Of a stretch of DNA of 34,857 bases, positions 1,253 to 19,764 are shown one piece after another. Position numbers and translations under genes: made by a program. Every line of letters starts with the position of its first letter. Position 1 is the first letter of the stretch. Source of the stretch: a bacterium (lineage in GTDB: Bacteria; T1Sed10-126); NCBI GenBank assembly GCA_003554945.1, contig PWHN01000010.1, forward strand, positions 1 to 34,857. The letters run 5' to 3'. The notes under the pieces are model-generated. The model worked only from the letters and a program-made list of their open reading frames with translations. It did not search any database and was not told where the DNA came from.

Positions 1253-1579
1253 ATGGGGTCTTCCAATTCCAGTGAGTTGCCCGCTTCTTTTAAGCACCTT
1301 TTTTGGGACTGTTCTTTCCAGGAGGTAAAGGATGAGCCTTCGCGCCCTTTTGTTATTAAGCGAATTTTGACTGAAGGGACCTGGGAGGAGATACAATGGT
1401 TAAGGCGCCAGCTTGGTGACAGTGAAATTAAAGGTTGGTTGCTGGAAAACCAGGGGCGTGGACTTACTCCGCGTCAGCTCCGCTTCTGGCAGTTACTACT
1501 TGATTTACCGGGAGAGCAGGTTAGTGCGTGGATCGAGCGAGAAAAAGAGACGCCCTGGCACCGGAGAAGAACAGCATGA
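1253..1579 (+). CDS. DUF6922-like protein, putative AbiEi-position antitoxin
   Basis: A 108-residue protein that I match from memory to the small DUF6922-type proteins encoded before AbiEii-family nucleotidyltransferases. Diagnostic stretches are LFWDCSFQEV near residue 17, FVIKRILTEGTWEEIQWL near 33-50, and LTPRQLRFWQLLLDLP near 72-87. The usual role inferred from context is the antitoxin or partner of an AbiEii toxin. The ATG follows a GGGAG site at suitable distance, and an extended -10 promoter lies upstream. The stop codon overlaps the start of the next gene (ATGA at 1576-1579), indicating translational coupling. The C-terminus runs into a basic stretch (WHRRRTA) created by the overlap region. 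No DNA-binding motif is obvious. Confidence 0.6.
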   Translation: MGSSNSSELPASFKHLFWDCSFQEVKDEPSRPFVIKRILTEGTWEEIQWLRRQLGDSEIKGWLLENQGRGLTPRQLRFWQLLLDLPGEQVSAWIEREKETPWHRRRTA

Positions 1580-1857
1580 AACTCCATACTGATATTCTCA
1601 CTTCCGCCCAGGAGGACGTTATTAATCTAACTGCTCTGCACATTGAGGATCTCGGGTTTTATCTCGCTGGTGGTACCGCCCTTGCGCTTCATCTTGGTCA
1701 CCGGCGTTCCGTTGATTTTGACTGGTTTCTTCCCAATGAGATGGGTTCCCCTGAACAGATTCAGCAGATTTTTTATGACCATGATATTCAGTTTGAGACG
1801 ACCAGTGTGGATCGGGGAACTCTTCATGGAACCATCCAGGGGAGGGGGGATAGATGA
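1576..1857 (+). pseudogene. AbiEii/AbiGii-family nucleotidyltransferase toxin, C-terminally truncated
   Basis: The protein begins MKLHTDILTS and contains the family signature FYLAGGTALALHLGHRRSVDFDWF, which combines the GG-T/S nucleotidyltransferase motif and the DxD-type metal site (SVDFDWF). It then continues to TLHGTIQG and stops after only about 93 residues, where full-length members run past 200. Sequence after TIQG is a G-rich run and a stop, with no resumption of family-like sequence in the next 100 bases. The lost part normally holds the third catalytic acid and the helical domain, so an active toxin is unlikely. The start overlaps the stop of the preceding partner gene. In the phage-defence AbiE systems this protein is the toxin; here I infer a dead module. 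Confidence 0.7.
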
Positions 1858-1958
1858 GTAGTTACAATTATTGGGTGTCCTGGTTCAGGCGGACGGGGTG
1901 GTTATTTTTTTGAATTTGTGTGATAATATTCCTCCAACTTTAAATGGGAGCGATTTTA

Positions 1959-2591
1959 ATGAGCGACCAGGAAGTTAGCCTGCGAAGTTTTGTTTATCTG
2001 GACAAGATTCAGCCGCAGTTTGCGGCTTTCGTGGCGAAGAAGTGTGTCAGCGATATTCCAACTTCAGGTCAGGCGTCGCTGTTTATAGAAATCCAGCCCG
2101 GGATCGAGATCAACCGGGTCGCAGACGTGGCGATGAAGAAGACGGATGTCCGGCCGGCGGTTGAGATTGAAGAGCGGGAGTATGGAATTATCGAGCTGCA
2201 CCACGACGACCAGTCCGAGGTCCGCTACGCTGGCCAGGCGGTGCTGGACGAGTTCAACCTGCAGTTTGATCAGCGTCTCAAGCCGAAAATTTTCGCCACC
2301 CAGGTAATTGATCGCGTCACCCCTTACCACGCCCAGGTGGTGAACAACGATTACGACGGTTCGCTGCTGCTGGACGGCGAATCACTGCTCATCATCGAGG
2401 TCCAGCCGGCGGTTAACTCGGTAAAGCTGGCCAATGACGCTGAAAAAGCTACTAATGTGAAAATAGTCCACTTTCGTCTGCGTGGTCGCTTTGGTCGCGT
2501 TTACCTGGCTGGAAGTGAAGACGAGACACGGGCTGCTCGCGATGCCGTTCTGACTAAATTTGAAACATTTAAAAACAGTCCTACCTTTTAA
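1959..2591 (+). CDS. Double BMC-domain (bacterial microcompartment shell-like) protein
   Basis: A 210-residue protein with two tandem alpha/beta repeats that look like BMC shell domains. The first spans about residues 40-105 (SLFIEIQPGIEINRVADVAM, then ending in a QAVLDEF helix). The second spans about residues 141-205 (SLLIIEVQPAVNSVKLANDA, then VKIVHFRLRGRFGRVYLAGS). The N-terminus SLRSFVYLDKIQPQFAAF matches a subfamily I recall as stand-alone BMC proteins. Tandem-BMC proteins form pseudohexameric trimers in compartment shells. ATG at 1959 is preferred because GGGAG lies 8 bases upstream; an in-frame ATG at 1944 has no ribosome site. No other shell protein, vertex protein or signature enzyme is nearby. 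The gene is followed after 12 bases by a glycosyltransferase and is probably co-transcribed with it. The fold call is by motif recognition only. Confidence 0.7.
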   Translation: MSDQEVSLRSFVYLDKIQPQFAAFVAKKCVSDIPTSGQASLFIEIQPGIEINRVADVAMKKTDVRPAVEIEEREYGIIELHHDDQSEVRYAGQAVLDEFNLQFDQRLKPKIFATQVIDRVTPYHAQVVNNDYDGSLLLDGESLLIIEVQPAVNSVKLANDAEKATNVKIVHFRLRGRFGRVYLAGSEDETRAARDAVLTKFETFKNSPTF

Positions 2592-13928: not shown

Positions 13929-14381
13929 ATGGCAATAGGATTGGAGATGTACCGGCAGCAGCGAGAAGAAGAAAAACGTCGCGAGCGGATGCGTGACAAG
14001 TTGAATAAAGTCAGCAAAGAATGTGAAATTCTGATTCGTAAACACGAGAGACAGCGGTTTATGAGGGTCTATATTTTGATGTCGTTTGATCGTATTATTC
14101 ATGAGCTTGCTTACCGTCGTTCGCTTGGCGTGGCTTCTGTAGAAGTGCGTGAGGAAGACGACGGCATGTATGTTGACCTTGAGGTGCAAAACAAAGAGAT
14201 GACCCAGACGGACGTGCGTGAAATTCTTGAGGAAAACCTCCGTGACAAGCATACATTTAACCTGGTGAAAGCGCTCAGTTTTGTCGATGATTTCGAAATT
14301 TCGCCTGGTGACGAGGGCGGAGTCAAGCTGGAAGCCACCAAAAAACTGAACACGGAGATCATCGACAAATCTGAAAGTTGA
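13929..14381 (+). CDS. Conserved-looking hypothetical protein, 150 residues
   Basis: I do not recognise a family. ATG 13929 follows AAGGAG at good spacing; an earlier in-frame ATG at 13887 lacks a site. The first 45 residues form a highly charged helix (MYRQQREEEKRRERMRDKL, a likely coiled coil), followed by a mixed helical segment (MRVYILMSFDRIIHELAYRR). The C-terminal half looks alpha/beta (ASVEVREEDDGMYVDLEVQ, VREILEENL). There is no signal peptide or membrane helix, so it is probably cytosolic. It lies 146 bases after glmS and 192 before the polyacidic TPR gene. Codon use and acidity resemble its neighbours, arguing for a resident gene. Confidence 0.7.
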   Translation: MAIGLEMYRQQREEEKRRERMRDKLNKVSKECEILIRKHERQRFMRVYILMSFDRIIHELAYRRSLGVASVEVREEDDGMYVDLEVQNKEMTQTDVREILEENLRDKHTFNLVKALSFVDDFEISPGDEGGVKLEATKKLNTEIIDKSES

Positions 14382-14573: not shown

Positions 14574-16955
14574 ATGAGTCCGGAAAATGAAAATGCCGAC
14601 GAAAATCAACAAGAAAATTTAGACGACCTGGAGGAGCTTACGCCGGAAGAACTGGCCCGCCGGGTTACTGAGGATGATTCCCCCGACGATTCTTCAGCTG
14701 AATCGCCAGGAGATCCATCTTCAGATGATGATGCTGCTGTCGCTGGTGAGGAGGAAGCGGAAGAAGATCAAGTAGAAGACGAGGAAGAAACAGAGGAGGA
14801 AGATTCTGAGGAAGGGGACGAAGAAGCCGTAGAGGAGGAAGAACCAACAGGAGACGCCGGTAAAGAGGAACCAGAGGAACAGTTAGAAGAGATAGAAGAG
14901 TCGGAAGCTCAAACAGAAGACGAGGAAGAAACAGAGGATGCAGTTGCTGAAGAAGGGGACGATGAAGCCGAAGAAGCGGGAGACGAGGGAGAGGAAGAAC
15001 CAGCTGAAGACGCCGATGAAGATGCAACTGAGGAAGCGGAAGAAGATATAGACGAACCGGAAGAACCAGCCGAGGACGAGGGAGAAACAGAGGAGGAAGA
15101 TTCTGAAGAAGCTGATGAAGAGGGAGATCCTGATGAAGACGTCGAGGGGGAAGAAGAGGAAGAAGTAGAAGGCGAACCGGGGGGAGAATTAGAGGAAGAA
15201 GTAGCAGAGGAACCGGAAGAGGAAGATGAAGATGAAGAAATAGAGGAAGAAATTTCTGAAGAAGAGGCTGATACTGAAGCTGAAAAAGAGGAAACCTCGA
15301 TAAAAGAGGTTCTTGAGCGTGAGGTTGACCGGGTAAAAGCGGAAAAGGAGGAGCCGGAAGAGCCGGAAGAGCCGGAAGAACCTGAGGAAGAGCTGCCGGG
15401 GGATTATCTGACACCGGATCAGTTGCCGGAACCGGAAGAATTTGAAGTTCCTGGTTGGGTTAAAAAGAGTGGCTGGGTGTTGCTTGCTCTGCTGGTTGCT
15501 TATCTGCTGCTTGTTTATCTTGTTTTGCCGGGTGTGGAAGTGTTGCTGACCCGGCAGATTCAGTCCTCGGCGGAAGCAAATAATTATCATCGTGCCGAGT
15601 TATTTTTTCGTATTGGCTACCTTGGTGAGGGAGTAATGGTTAGCGAACCCGATAAATTTGCCGCTGATTATTTTAGAACCCTGCTTACCGGCCGTCAGTT
15701 TGAACAATTCGCCAGTAATTACGAAGAATATTTTGACAACAACGCCGGTCCTTACACCCTGAAGAGTTATGCCGAATATTTGGTTGCCCAGGGGAAATGG
15801 GAGGAATTGCTGGAAGTTGGGGAAGAGCTGCAGATGGAGCCTGAAGTTCAAGGCCCCGGTTTTGTCTTTATCGCCCGGGCGCACAAGGAATTAGGCAATC
15901 TGCGGGAGGCTCAGTCCGAAATCGAATATGCCGTTACTCATCGCTGGGGGGATGCTTCCGTTGATCGTCTGGAGCGTGATATTGCGCTTGCCGATAGAGA
16001 TTACAGCCGTGCCGCTTCGGCGTCGGCCCGCCTATTTAGTCGTCTGGATCCCGCCCTCTCTCCCGAAGAAAGACACCGGTGGAATCGTTTCGACAGGCTT
16101 ATGGCGGACGATTATGTTTATAGAGGTGATGCCTGGTTTGAGATGGATAACAGAGACGCTGCAATTCGAATGTATGAGACGGCGCTTGTCGAGGTCCCAT
16201 ACCACCCGCGCGCTCTGGAAGTGCTGGCCCGTTTTTTAACCATTCAGCGTCGCTGGTCTTCTGTTCAACCTTACCTGGTTGGCGATGATCGTTTCATTCC
16301 CTATCGCAGTCTTTATCCACTCGATGCCCTTGGCTGGTGGACGCTTGCCGAGTTCAGTTTTCGGGCTCAAAACCAGACTGGCAGAGCAATTCCGCTGGCC
16401 GAACGGGCTCGGGAAATTGAGCCTCGGGAGCCCGAAACAGAGCGTATAATTGGCGAAATTTATCTTTTCGAATTGGACGCGCCTTCGCACGCTGTCGCTC
16501 ATCTTGAGCTGGCCCGCGAATACGGGCTTGAGCGGCTTGAGTTTATTAAAAATTTAAGCCGCGCTTATTATGAAGCTGAGCTCTATTTGTTAGCTCTGGA
16601 TGAGTTTGAAGAATTGCGCGAGCACCCGGATGTCCTCGAAGATAGCCCAGAATTATTGTATAATATTGCTTCGTCATACTTAGGCGCCGAGATGCTTGAC
16701 GAAGCCGATGAATACCTTTCTATGGCCGAAGCTGCCGGTTTTGATGAGCCGACTCTTTTCAATCAGCGGGGGTTGATCCGTGAACTTCAGGGCGAGGAAG
16801 AAGCAGCAGTAGTTAATTACTTTCAGGGGGCTGAGAGAGCTGAGGAAGTGGGCGAACACGAGGATCTGTTGAATAGCAATCTTAATAGATTCTGGGAAGA
16901 TATTCCTCCCGAGCCCCTGAAGGACTGGCTGGCTCCTGTTAATTTGAATTTTTAG
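14574..16955 (+). CDS. Membrane-anchored TPR protein with a polyacidic N-terminal region
   Basis: A 793-residue protein in three parts. Residues 1-290 are disordered and extremely acidic: over residues 51-240 I count about 120 Asp/Glu in 190 (63%) with only two Lys and no Arg. Recurring phrases are EETEEEDSEE and, near 260-275, PEEPEEPEEP. One transmembrane helix follows at about 299-320 (WVLLALLVAYLLLVYLVLPG), preceded by Lys-Lys, so the acidic part is most likely cytoplasmic. The remaining 470 residues form TPR-like helical repeats, for example FVFIARAHKELGNLREAQSE, AIRMYETALVEVPYHPRALE and LLYNIASSYLGAEMLDEADE, predicted outside the membrane. TPR arrays bind partner proteins. The neighbours lepB and ftsI suggest an envelope role, but this is inference. 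The ATG follows GAGGGG. Confidence 0.85.
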   Translation: MSPENENADENQQENLDDLEELTPEELARRVTEDDSPDDSSAESPGDPSSDDDAAVAGEEEAEEDQVEDEEETEEEDSEEGDEEAVEEEEPTGDAGKEEPEEQLEEIEESEAQTEDEEETEDAVAEEGDDEAEEAGDEGEEEPAEDADEDATEEAEEDIDEPEEPAEDEGETEEEDSEEADEEGDPDEDVEGEEEEEVEGEPGGELEEEVAEEPEEEDEDEEIEEEISEEEADTEAEKEETSIKEVLEREVDRVKAEKEEPEEPEEPEEPEEELPGDYLTPDQLPEPEEFEVPGWVKKSGWVLLALLVAYLLLVYLVLPGVEVLLTRQIQSSAEANNYHRAELFFRIGYLGEGVMVSEPDKFAADYFRTLLTGRQFEQFASNYEEYFDNNAGPYTLKSYAEYLVAQGKWEELLEVGEELQMEPEVQGPGFVFIARAHKELGNLREAQSEIEYAVTHRWGDASVDRLERDIALADRDYSRAASASARLFSRLDPALSPEERHRWNRFDRLMADDYVYRGDAWFEMDNRDAAIRMYETALVEVPYHPRALEVLARFLTIQRRWSSVQPYLVGDDRFIPYRSLYPLDALGWWTLAEFSFRAQNQTGRAIPLAERAREIEPREPETERIIGEIYLFELDAPSHAVAHLELAREYGLERLEFIKNLSRAYYEAELYLLALDEFEELREHPDVLEDSPELLYNIASSYLGAEMLDEADEYLSMAEAAGFDEPTLFNQRGLIRELQGEEEAAVVNYFQGAERAEEVGEHEDLLNSNLNRFWEDIPPEPLKDWLAPVNLNF

Positions 16956-17079: not shown

Positions 17080-18138
17080 GTGCTAAAAAATTTTCTAAAC
17101 TGGCTGTTTCTTCCCCCGGAAGCTAAGAGCGATTTTCGTGAGTGGGCAGAGCTTGTGGGGCTTTATCTGCTCTTTTCTGTCGTTGTTGTCGCACAGGGAG
17201 AACTTCCGCTGCCCTGGGTGCTGGCCGGGATATTATTGCTCGGTCTGGGGGTTTCAAAAGCCGGACGTGAGCTGCTTCGTATTGCTCTTGTCGCCGCCAT
17301 CCTGGTTTTTGGTGTTATTCGTCCTTACGTAGTTCAGGCCTTTTACATACCCTCGCGTTCCATGGAAAATACACTCCAGATCAATGATCATATTTTTGTG
17401 AATAAGTTTGTTTACTACCTCCGTTCCCCGCGACGCTGGGAAACGATTGTGTTTGAGTATCCGCCGGAGCCCGACAAAGATTTTGTCAAAAGGCTTATAG
17501 CGCTGCCCGGCGACGAGGTTGAGTTGAGGGACCATAATCTGCTTCTTGATGGTGACACTATTTCCCGTCAACGAGTTGGTGGCGAGATTTTTCTGCACGG
17601 CTATGAGGCCGACCAGCTGCAGGAGGCGGGCGAAGACACTCTTCGCTTCGCTGCCGATAATCTGCAGGTGAATAATCAGTTGGTTTTGGGAGACCAGAAC
17701 GCCGAGACTCCCTTAAATCTTCACGGTGATGTGATGGGACTCTACCAGGAAGCCAATAATCACGAGATTAAGGTCGCGGCCCGTATCTGGGACAATTCCA
17801 ATCGTCCGGGCTTACCGTCTGATTTTGGACCACTACGTATTCCTGAGGTTGGCGAGCGCGTCGATCTCACCGACCTGCCCGATTACGAGCGTCAGTTTTA
17901 TATTTCCTATTTAAAACAACTACATCGCAACGATTTTACCAAACGAGACGGCGTGATGTATCTCTCCGGTGAGCCGGTAGAGGAAATAGAAATTGAGGAA
18001 CCGCTTTACTTTGTTCTCGGGGACAACCGTGGACACAGTGAAGATTCACGCTACTGGGGGTTTGTGCCCCAGAGTAAGTTGCTTGGCCGGGCCTTTTTTA
18101 TTTACTGGCCGTTCGGCCGCGTCGGTCTGGTGGGATAA
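17080..18138 (+). CDS. lepB: Signal peptidase I, enlarged
   Basis: A Ser/Lys-dyad protease that removes Sec/Tat signal peptides at the membrane. The 352-residue protein has N-terminal membrane helices at about 24-39, 43-59 and 67-85. Catalytic Ser is at about 94 in YIPSRSMENTL, and catalytic Lys at about 137 in DFVKRLIALPGDEVE. The last conserved box is YFVLGDNRGHSEDSRYWG. Between the Lys box and the last box lies about 165 residues, including an acidic block (about 165-300) that is much longer than in minimal family members. The start is GTG 17080 with AAGGTG 7 bases upstream. The ftsI-type gene follows after 3 bases, indicating one operon. Confidence 0.94.
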   Translation: MLKNFLNWLFLPPEAKSDFREWAELVGLYLLFSVVVVAQGELPLPWVLAGILLLGLGVSKAGRELLRIALVAAILVFGVIRPYVVQAFYIPSRSMENTLQINDHIFVNKFVYYLRSPRRWETIVFEYPPEPDKDFVKRLIALPGDEVELRDHNLLLDGDTISRQRVGGEIFLHGYEADQLQEAGEDTLRFAADNLQVNNQLVLGDQNAETPLNLHGDVMGLYQEANNHEIKVAARIWDNSNRPGLPSDFGPLRIPEVGERVDLTDLPDYERQFYISYLKQLHRNDFTKRDGVMYLSGEPVEEIEIEEPLYFVLGDNRGHSEDSRYWGFVPQSKLLGRAFFIYWPFGRVGLVG

Positions 18139-18141
18139 AAA

Positions 18142-19764
18142 ATGGCTGGTCTGCGTTCTAAAATAACCCGCCGTTCTTTGATTCTACTGGTTGCTTTTTC
18201 TTTCCTCTTTGGTCTTATTTTCATTGTTTCTATACATTTGATGTTGATTAAACCCTGGTATTCTCCCGAATGGGGAGAAATTCAAACAGAACAGCGCGAG
18301 CTGGAGACTCCGCGTGGAAGCATAGTCGATCGCGAGGGCAACACGCTGGCGATCAGCACCCAGCGCTACTCTCTCTACGCTAACCCGCGAATGATTGGCG
18401 GTGGCTGGGAGATAGCCCGGCTGCTGGAATCGATTATTGATCTTTCAGCCCCCGAAATTTATATGCGATTACAGAGTGATCGTTTTTTTGTCTGGCTGGA
18501 ACGAAAATTAGACGACCGACGTGCCCGTCAACTTGATGAGCTTGACATACCGGGGCTTGGACTGGTCCCGGAATATGAACGTATCTATCCAAATGAAGAA
18601 CTGGCTTCTCACGTTTTAGGATTTGTGGGTCTGGACAACTACGGCTTAGAAGGCGTAGAACGACAGTTCGATGACTTTTTAACCGGCGACGGTGAAGAAT
18701 TTCATGATATAAATCTTGTTTTGACAATTGACCAGACAATCCAACACTATTTGGAGGAAGAACTTCGCAGAATGGTGCGTGCCAGCCAGTCCCGAAGTGC
18801 TATGGGAGTGGTAATGGATCCTAATAGCGGAGAAGTTCTGGCCATGGCAAATGTCCCCGGATTCGATCCCAACGAATATGGGAGGTTTCCCGAGGAATTG
18901 TGGCGCAATCGTGCAATATCTGACCCGGTTGAGCCGGGCTCGACTTTTAAAGTAATGACCATCGGCAGTGCCATGGCTCGCGGTGATGTGCAGTCCGACT
19001 CAACCTTCAACTGTCCGGGCTATAACCATTTTGCTAACGCCGATTATACATTACGCTGTTACGCCGAACATGGTGACCTTTCGCTGGCTGAAATTTTAAT
19101 AAAAAGTTGTAACGTTGGTACGGCCAAGGCTATCGAACAGATGGAACCTGAGGATTTTTATCGTCACCTGCGTCGTTTTGGTTTTGGCAACCGGACTGGG
19201 ATTCAACTTCCTGGTGAAGGACGTGGGACTCTTCGTCGTCCGGCTAACTGGTCGGCCATTACTCAGCCCAGTGTGGCGATAGGGCAGGGGGTTTCAGCGA
19301 CAGCTCTCCAGGAAACAGCAGCTCTTTCGGCCGTTGTTAATGGTGGACGTTTGCTTGAACCGCGAATCATGAAAGCCAAACAGGTGGCGGGCGAAGAAAA
19401 TAAAACCAGTGAAGCAACGAAAGTCCGCAGGGTTGTGCAGCCGGAGGTTGCTGCCGAGTTGCGCCAGCATATGCGCGGTGTCGTTAGCCGTGGAACCGGC
19501 CAGGCCGCCAGCTCAGACGACTTCGAACTGGCCGGCAAAACCGGCACTGCCCAAAAAGCAGATCTCGAGCGGGGAGGCTATCACGAAGATAAAGTAATGG
19601 CCTCTTTTATTGGTTTTGGCCCGGTAGACGAGCCCGCCCTTGCCGTAAATATTATTGCCGATGAACCGGAAAAGGGGCGCTACGGAGGCGAAGTTGCCGG
19701 CCCCGCTTTCAAACGTGTGCTCGAGCGCAGCCTTAAATATTTAAATTTGAACAGTAACCAATAA
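18142..19764 (+). CDS. ftsI: Class B penicillin-binding protein (FtsI/PBP2-type transpeptidase)
   Basis: A septal or elongation-type peptidoglycan transpeptidase of 540 residues. A short basic N-terminus leads to one membrane helix (about 12-36), then the pedestal/dimerisation domain starting at TPRGSIVDREGNTLA. The penicillin-binding domain follows with the three active motifs S-T-F-K (Ser267), S-C-N (322-324) and K-T-G-T (466-469). There are no PASTA domains at the C-terminus, unlike many Firmicute homologues. It is the only PBP here and lies outside the usual dcw (mra/mur/fts) cluster, so whether it is the main division FtsI or a paralogue is open. It is coupled to lepB (3-base gap). Confidence 0.9.
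   Translation: MAGLRSKITRRSLILLVAFSFLFGLIFIVSIHLMLIKPWYSPEWGEIQTEQRELETPRGSIVDREGNTLAISTQRYSLYANPRMIGGGWEIARLLESIIDLSAPEIYMRLQSDRFFVWLERKLDDRRARQLDELDIPGLGLVPEYERIYPNEELASHVLGFVGLDNYGLEGVERQFDDFLTGDGEEFHDINLVLTIDQTIQHYLEEELRRMVRASQSRSAMGVVMDPNSGEVLAMANVPGFDPNEYGRFPEELWRNRAISDPVEPGSTFKVMTIGSAMARGDVQSDSTFNCPGYNHFANADYTLRCYAEHGDLSLAEILIKSCNVGTAKAIEQMEPEDFYRHLRRFGFGNRTGIQLPGEGRGTLRRPANWSAITQPSVAIGQGVSATALQETAALSAVVNGGRLLEPRIMKAKQVAGEENKTSEATKVRRVVQPEVAAELRQHMRGVVSRGTGQAASSDDFELAGKTGTAQKADLERGGYHEDKVMASFIGFGPVDEPALAVNIIADEPEKGRYGGEVAGPAFKRVLERSLKYLNLNSNQ

Follow-up and report, generated by a model that had tools for sequence, protein, structure and literature searches.

FtsY carries an acidic, variable A domain at its N-terminus, in the cytoplasm at the membrane. 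The acidic A-domain of Toc159 belongs to a chloroplast preprotein receptor (PMC2805684), and YfgM, a TPR_21 protein (PF09976), has a single helix with its N-terminus inside and is a partner of PpiD and SecYEG (PMC9643414). Here we describe a bacterial gene for a transmembrane TPR protein with a long acidic tail, found in a window of 34,857 nucleotides (contig PWHN01000010.1 of GenBank assembly GCA_003554945.1, forward strand). The interval in question is exactly one open reading frame with an ATG start (Table 1).

The protein has one strong hydrophobic segment, for which the best 19-residue window covers residues 300–318 (KD 2.67). Lysines stand just before this helix in both homologues, this protein and its counterpart in a sister genus (VKKSG and LKKGFK), and the several positions that follow it carry no basic residue. 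From this low positive charge we predict an N-in/C-out orientation. It would be unusual for an N-terminal tail of 295 residues and net charge −151 to be translocated with no signal peptide. The protein would then be a single-pass inner-membrane protein with its tail in the cytoplasm. This is the layout given in the preliminary description, which had one helix joining an inner tail to an outer TPR array; the helix stands and the sidedness is a prediction from the lysine flank.

That description also had the gene next to lepB and an ftsI-type gene, and both are indeed present downstream. The sister genus assembly gave no LepB match, and its contig ends inside the TPR gene, before the position of lepB. 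The 150-aa protein encoded upstream is without a Pfam family. It has a distant homologue in Candidatus Lindowbacteria (31–34% identity), where the TPR gene is not beside it.

Table 1. Features of the TPR gene and its neighbors, in positions of the window.
Feature	Position	Strand	Basis
Upstream gene, 150 aa, neighbor of the TPR gene in the phylum's two genera	13929..14381	+	85% identity in sister genus
Complete CDS, acidic-tailed transmembrane TPR protein, 793 aa	14574..16955	+	ORF reading; single copy in genome
Tail tip, residues 1–34, with 'EELTPEELARRVT' motif, kept in homologue	14574..14675	+	local alignment
Polyacidic repetitive core, residues 51–240, 63.2% D/E (120 D/E), 2 K/R; length varies between two genera	14724..15293	+	
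Repeat unit 1, reference copy, from residue 61	14754..14842	+	self-alignment
Repeat unit 2, 47 codons past unit 1, 81% nt identity to it	14895..14983	+	
Repeat unit 3, ~52 codons past unit 2, 72% nt identity to unit 1	15051..15139	+	
Juxtamembrane motif LPGDYLTPDQLPEPEE, residues 274–289, conserved (LPxxYLxPxxLPEPEE)	15393..15440	+	alignment
Transmembrane helix, about residues 299–319, K297-K298 just before	15462..15530	+	hydropathy, alignment
Predicted extracytoplasmic all-helical TPR-type array, about residues 333–790	15570..16943	+	profiles, AlphaFold2, Foldseek
lepB, signal peptidase I; 124-nt gap after TPR gene	17080..18138	+	profile match
Class B penicillin-binding protein (FtsI/SpoVD type), directly 3' of lepB	18142..19764	+	profile match

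Other parts of the window gave a few separate observations. Two tRNAs were the only Rfam matches. A BMC-domain-like protein is encoded at 1944–2591 (+), with PF00936 just below the cut-off and apparently in tandem; we saw no other microcompartment genes alongside. In the sister genus, a BMC-domain-like gene (L014 2469–3101) immediately precedes the 150-aa gene and the TPR gene. At about 1576–1857 (+) there is a fragment that resembles an AbiEii-type nucleotidyltransferase (FYLAGGTALALHLGHRRSVDFDWF, read by eye) with an early stop, which is probably a decayed gene.

The ~470 residues after the helix contain TPR matches. TPR_1 scored 28.3 bits on the full protein (cut-off 27.8) and 32.0 bits when the tail was left out, with the match placed at residues 514–538 (E=1e-6). 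The AlphaFold2 model of the array consists of helix pairs, at a low mean pLDDT of 53.8, and the best Foldseek matches of this low-confidence model are TPR superhelices. With a profile score above the curated cut-off and paired helices in the model, the array qualifies as a member of the TPR superfamily. Searching the PDB by sequence with the protein found nothing close (the best hit, at E=0.016, was a designed consensus TPR), and a protein scan of genome contigs with the TPR part found no relatives. Two named TPR families were rejected on score: PrsT (TIGR02917; 25.4 bits against an equivalog cut-off of 312.2) and MamA (NF040959; 21.3 bits against 200).

The tail, residues 1–295, contains 160 D/E and 9 K/R (54% D/E, net charge −151). 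Our measurement agrees with the earlier estimate of about 63% Asp/Glu and almost no basic residues over residues 51–240. The tail length of roughly 250 residues given at that time can be refined to ~295 aa for the whole predicted cytoplasmic part, with a polyacidic core of ~190–240 aa. Over 100 aa, the net acidity of the tail reaches 0.67, the highest of 189 sampled proteins (next 0.50, median 0.12); these are ORFs from stretches (~255 kb) of the same genome, and some of the contigs were picked for acidic tracts, which biases the sample towards competitors of the tail. The sampled proteome as a whole is moderately acidic, with a median pI of 5.03, 15.9% D/E and 10.8% K/R. By the charge-hydropathy rule, the tails of both this protein and its homologue lie deep in disordered space.

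The tail had been described as built from imperfect repeats, and this was borne out at the nucleotide level. Its best 30-codon self-match has ~80% identity, compared with 68±2% in codon shuffles (maximum 78%), and none of 300 shuffles reached it. Locally the tail matches itself best at an offset of 47 codons, and over its whole length self-similarity peaks at 52, 99 and 104 codons. The tail consists of about three diverged units of 47–52 residues. Because codons for Glu and Asp are mixed (GAA 80, GAG 42, GAT 23, GAC 15), the tail is not a fresh microsatellite.

The genomes that we compared include only two members of this phylum, the window genome and one MAG from a soda lake. The MAG (bacterium isolate CSSed10_354m) has the only homologue that we found, a gene that runs off its contig after 312 residues. 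The CSSed10 data set is from a sediment sample of a moderate-salinity soda lake (PMC6146748). The two proteins are 47–48% identical in the juxtamembrane part, the helix and the first TPRs. When 386 genomes were searched with a profile, these two were the only proteins to match over the helix and the juxtamembrane part; 14 other matches were short TPR cross-matches. One weak match (G029) covers residues 318–481 of the TPR part only, at a locus where we saw no layout of tail, helix and TPR on the strand that was read, and we treated it as a TPR cross-match. Our best reading is that the acidic-tailed TPR protein is restricted to this phylum.

The tail of the sister homologue is 107 aa long, with 40% D/E and a net charge of −36, so acidity is present in both proteins and the length, which the earlier description proposed to compare, is very different (295 aa and 107 aa). 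Homologues lacking any acidic tail would have spoken against that description, and the only one found has such a tail. The long acidic tract is absent from the sister genus. What the two tails share, far beyond composition, is their ends. At the tip they have the pattern MSPxxE...ENQ..QEN...EELTPEELARxVT, where the local alignment score is 90 against a shuffle maximum of 63 (0/2000), and the juxtamembrane motif scores 79 against a maximum of 61 (0/2000). A helix-like segment in the middle of the tail is conserved more weakly (p 0.0085) and the core is not conserved. On these two sequences, one of which ends at its contig end, the acidic tail is conserved and its length is not. We considered whether the tail could be an assembly artefact and ruled this out by the open frame of 793 codons and by the conserved ends that flank the core in an independent MAG.

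Six or more unrelated proteins of the genome also have acidic low-complexity linkers: SecG, PilM-PilN, a SPOR protein, a secretin, a ComEA-like HhH protein and a DUF342 protein that we take to be FapA-like. The linkers are predicted to lie on either side of the membrane; the linker of the SPOR protein and the C-terminal tail of SecG are expected on the side opposite to the tail of the TPR protein. Since several of these linkers should sit outside the cytoplasm, acidity does not appear to be tied to a single compartment or partner. With acidic linkers so widespread and the sampled proteome moderately acidic, the most economical account is lineage-wide evolution of acidic linkers, of which the tail of the TPR protein would be an extreme case.

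Some of these proteins have features of their own. SecG (PF03840; 25976–26512 (+) in the window) has an acidic, repetitive C-terminal tail of ~100 aa (PEEMPEDPEEMPDDAEAIPMDPEEMP), expected to be extracytoplasmic, and overall contains 24% D/E and 1.7% K/R. The PilM-PilN fusion (L031 337–2913; G000:C47:2527–5103) has an acidic and proline-rich insert of 324 aa inside PilM (37% D/E). In the sister genus (L048) this insert is 212 aa, so that it is longer in the window genome, as is the tail of the TPR protein. A short hydrophobic motif recurs in the insert (LELGVP, LNLGIP, NLGQPRKP / LGLGKPRKP, LSLGA) and may be a repeated binding motif. The FtsN-like SPOR protein (L058 2008–2736 (−); G000:C102:62011–62736) consists of one helix, an acidic PEE-type linker of ~110 aa and the SPOR domain, and has a homologue in the sister genus (L086, 40% identity). 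The PilQ-like secretin (L053 9555–14396; G000:C47), of 1614 aa, combines AMIN, Ig-like (Big_1, below cut-off) and C-terminal helix-hairpin-helix domains with acidic stretches, which is an unusual domain mix.

The explanation that we lean towards, with some reservation, is a periplasmic TPR scaffold with a disordered acidic spacer in the cytoplasm, grown by repeats, with a short conserved motif at its tip, in a lineage whose linkers have become acidic. The periplasmic TPR superhelix would be a scaffold for protein-protein contacts in envelope biogenesis. The 295-residue cytoplasmic region would be an intrinsically disordered polyacidic spacer, as its charge and hydropathy suggest, that sets the EELTPEELAR tip at a variable distance from the juxtamembrane motif. 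The tip and the base would do the specific work, with a putative partner for the tip, and the acidic core would supply length, charge repulsion and solubility at high ionic strength. Expansion of the core would have come from duplication of units of ~47–52 residues. Acidification of disordered linkers throughout the proteome of the lineage is plausibly an adaptation to haloalkaline conditions, where the habitat data are from the sister genome only.

Several functions had been proposed for the tail: binding cations, DNA-binding proteins or ribosomes, or acting as an entropic spacer. We favor the entropic spacer because the length of the tail is not conserved, and we find the binding roles without support. 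A dedicated sink for cations, ribosomes or DNA-binding proteins is argued against by the comparable linkers in many unrelated proteins, some of them expected across the membrane from the tail. Against the spacer, the acidity of the tail clearly exceeds that of every other linker that we sampled, and a dedicated role for the charge is possible.

One such role would make the acidic core a functional polyanion. It would act at the membrane near lepB, in the manner of the Toc159 A-domain, to recruit basic partners or to sequester them; these could be ribosomes, nascent secretory chains, SRP/Sec components or DNA-binding proteins. The A-domains of Toc159 are disordered, acidic N-terminal regions of variable sequence on a membrane import receptor (PMC2805684), the net charge of −151 and the highest acidity over 100 aa in our sample suit such a role, and the gene adjoins lepB. 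We nevertheless think it unlikely: neither the charge nor the length is kept in the sister genus (40% D/E, net −36), similar linkers are found in unrelated proteins across the predicted membrane, and the attraction would be screened at high ionic strength.

It is also doubtful that the tail is near-neutral, that is, that slippage in GA-rich repeats and an acid-biased mutational and selective background lengthened an ancestral tail of ~100 residues and left the extra ~190 residues idle. The repeats at 47–52 codons, the like expansion in PilM (324 vs 212 aa) and the sister genus without the long tract would all fit. However, the frame and the D/E composition persist through 190 codons in which synonymous codons are mixed and K/R is nearly absent. 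One-step changes of GAA/GAG to AAA/AAG (Lys) are almost absent, and so the composition of the core looks selected.

A more novel idea is a cytoplasmic "fishing line" on a phylum-specific envelope scaffold, in which the conserved EELTPEELAR tip would capture a partner in the cytoplasm and tether this partner to the TPR array in the periplasm; expansion and contraction of the acidic repeats would tune the reach between species. We put it forward tentatively and think it unlikely. We think it very improbable that the protein is an ancillary factor of the Sec translocon equivalent to YfgM, with the tail touching SecY/SecG from inside: the predicted topology is shared, the cytoplasmic segment of YfgM crosslinks to SecG (PMC9643414) and the gene adjoins lepB, but TPR_21 is not matched, and both genomes encode a separate single-helix TPR_21 protein of ~211–215 aa, without an acidic tail, that is a better fit to YfgM.

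The case shows that linkers predicted to be disordered can be strongly acidic on either predicted side of the membrane, here in a thinly sampled lineage of bacteria that has a relative from a haloalkaline sediment. The length of such a tail can triple between sister genera with the short end motifs fixed, and the pair of variable core and fixed ends is a usable natural experiment on the purpose of polyacidic membrane spacers. A partner for the tip motif, if there is one, would make the protein a novel type of trans-membrane tether.

Among known systems, PrsT (TIGR02917), MamA and generic TPR proteins have TPR-type repeats in common with this protein, and the similarity to PrsT and MamA is weak. 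FtsY differs as a GTPase without TPRs or a comparable single-pass helix. The Toc159 A-domain is alike in being a long, acidic, membrane-anchored N-terminal region in the cytosol, variable in length and sequence, where the disorder and the cytosolic side are predicted for our protein; Toc159 has GTPase and membrane domains of a different type and no TPR, there is no homology, and a role as a transit-peptide receptor is not implied. YfgM orthology is ruled out, as PF09976 did not match the protein at E≤1, a PF09976 search matched other genes of the genome, and both genomes have the separate YfgM-like gene. The likeness to YfgM is in the N-in single helix and the extracytoplasmic TPR domain, predicted here from the helix and its lysine flank, and the difference is that YfgM has four TPR motifs and a short cytoplasmic segment where our protein has a tail of 295 aa.
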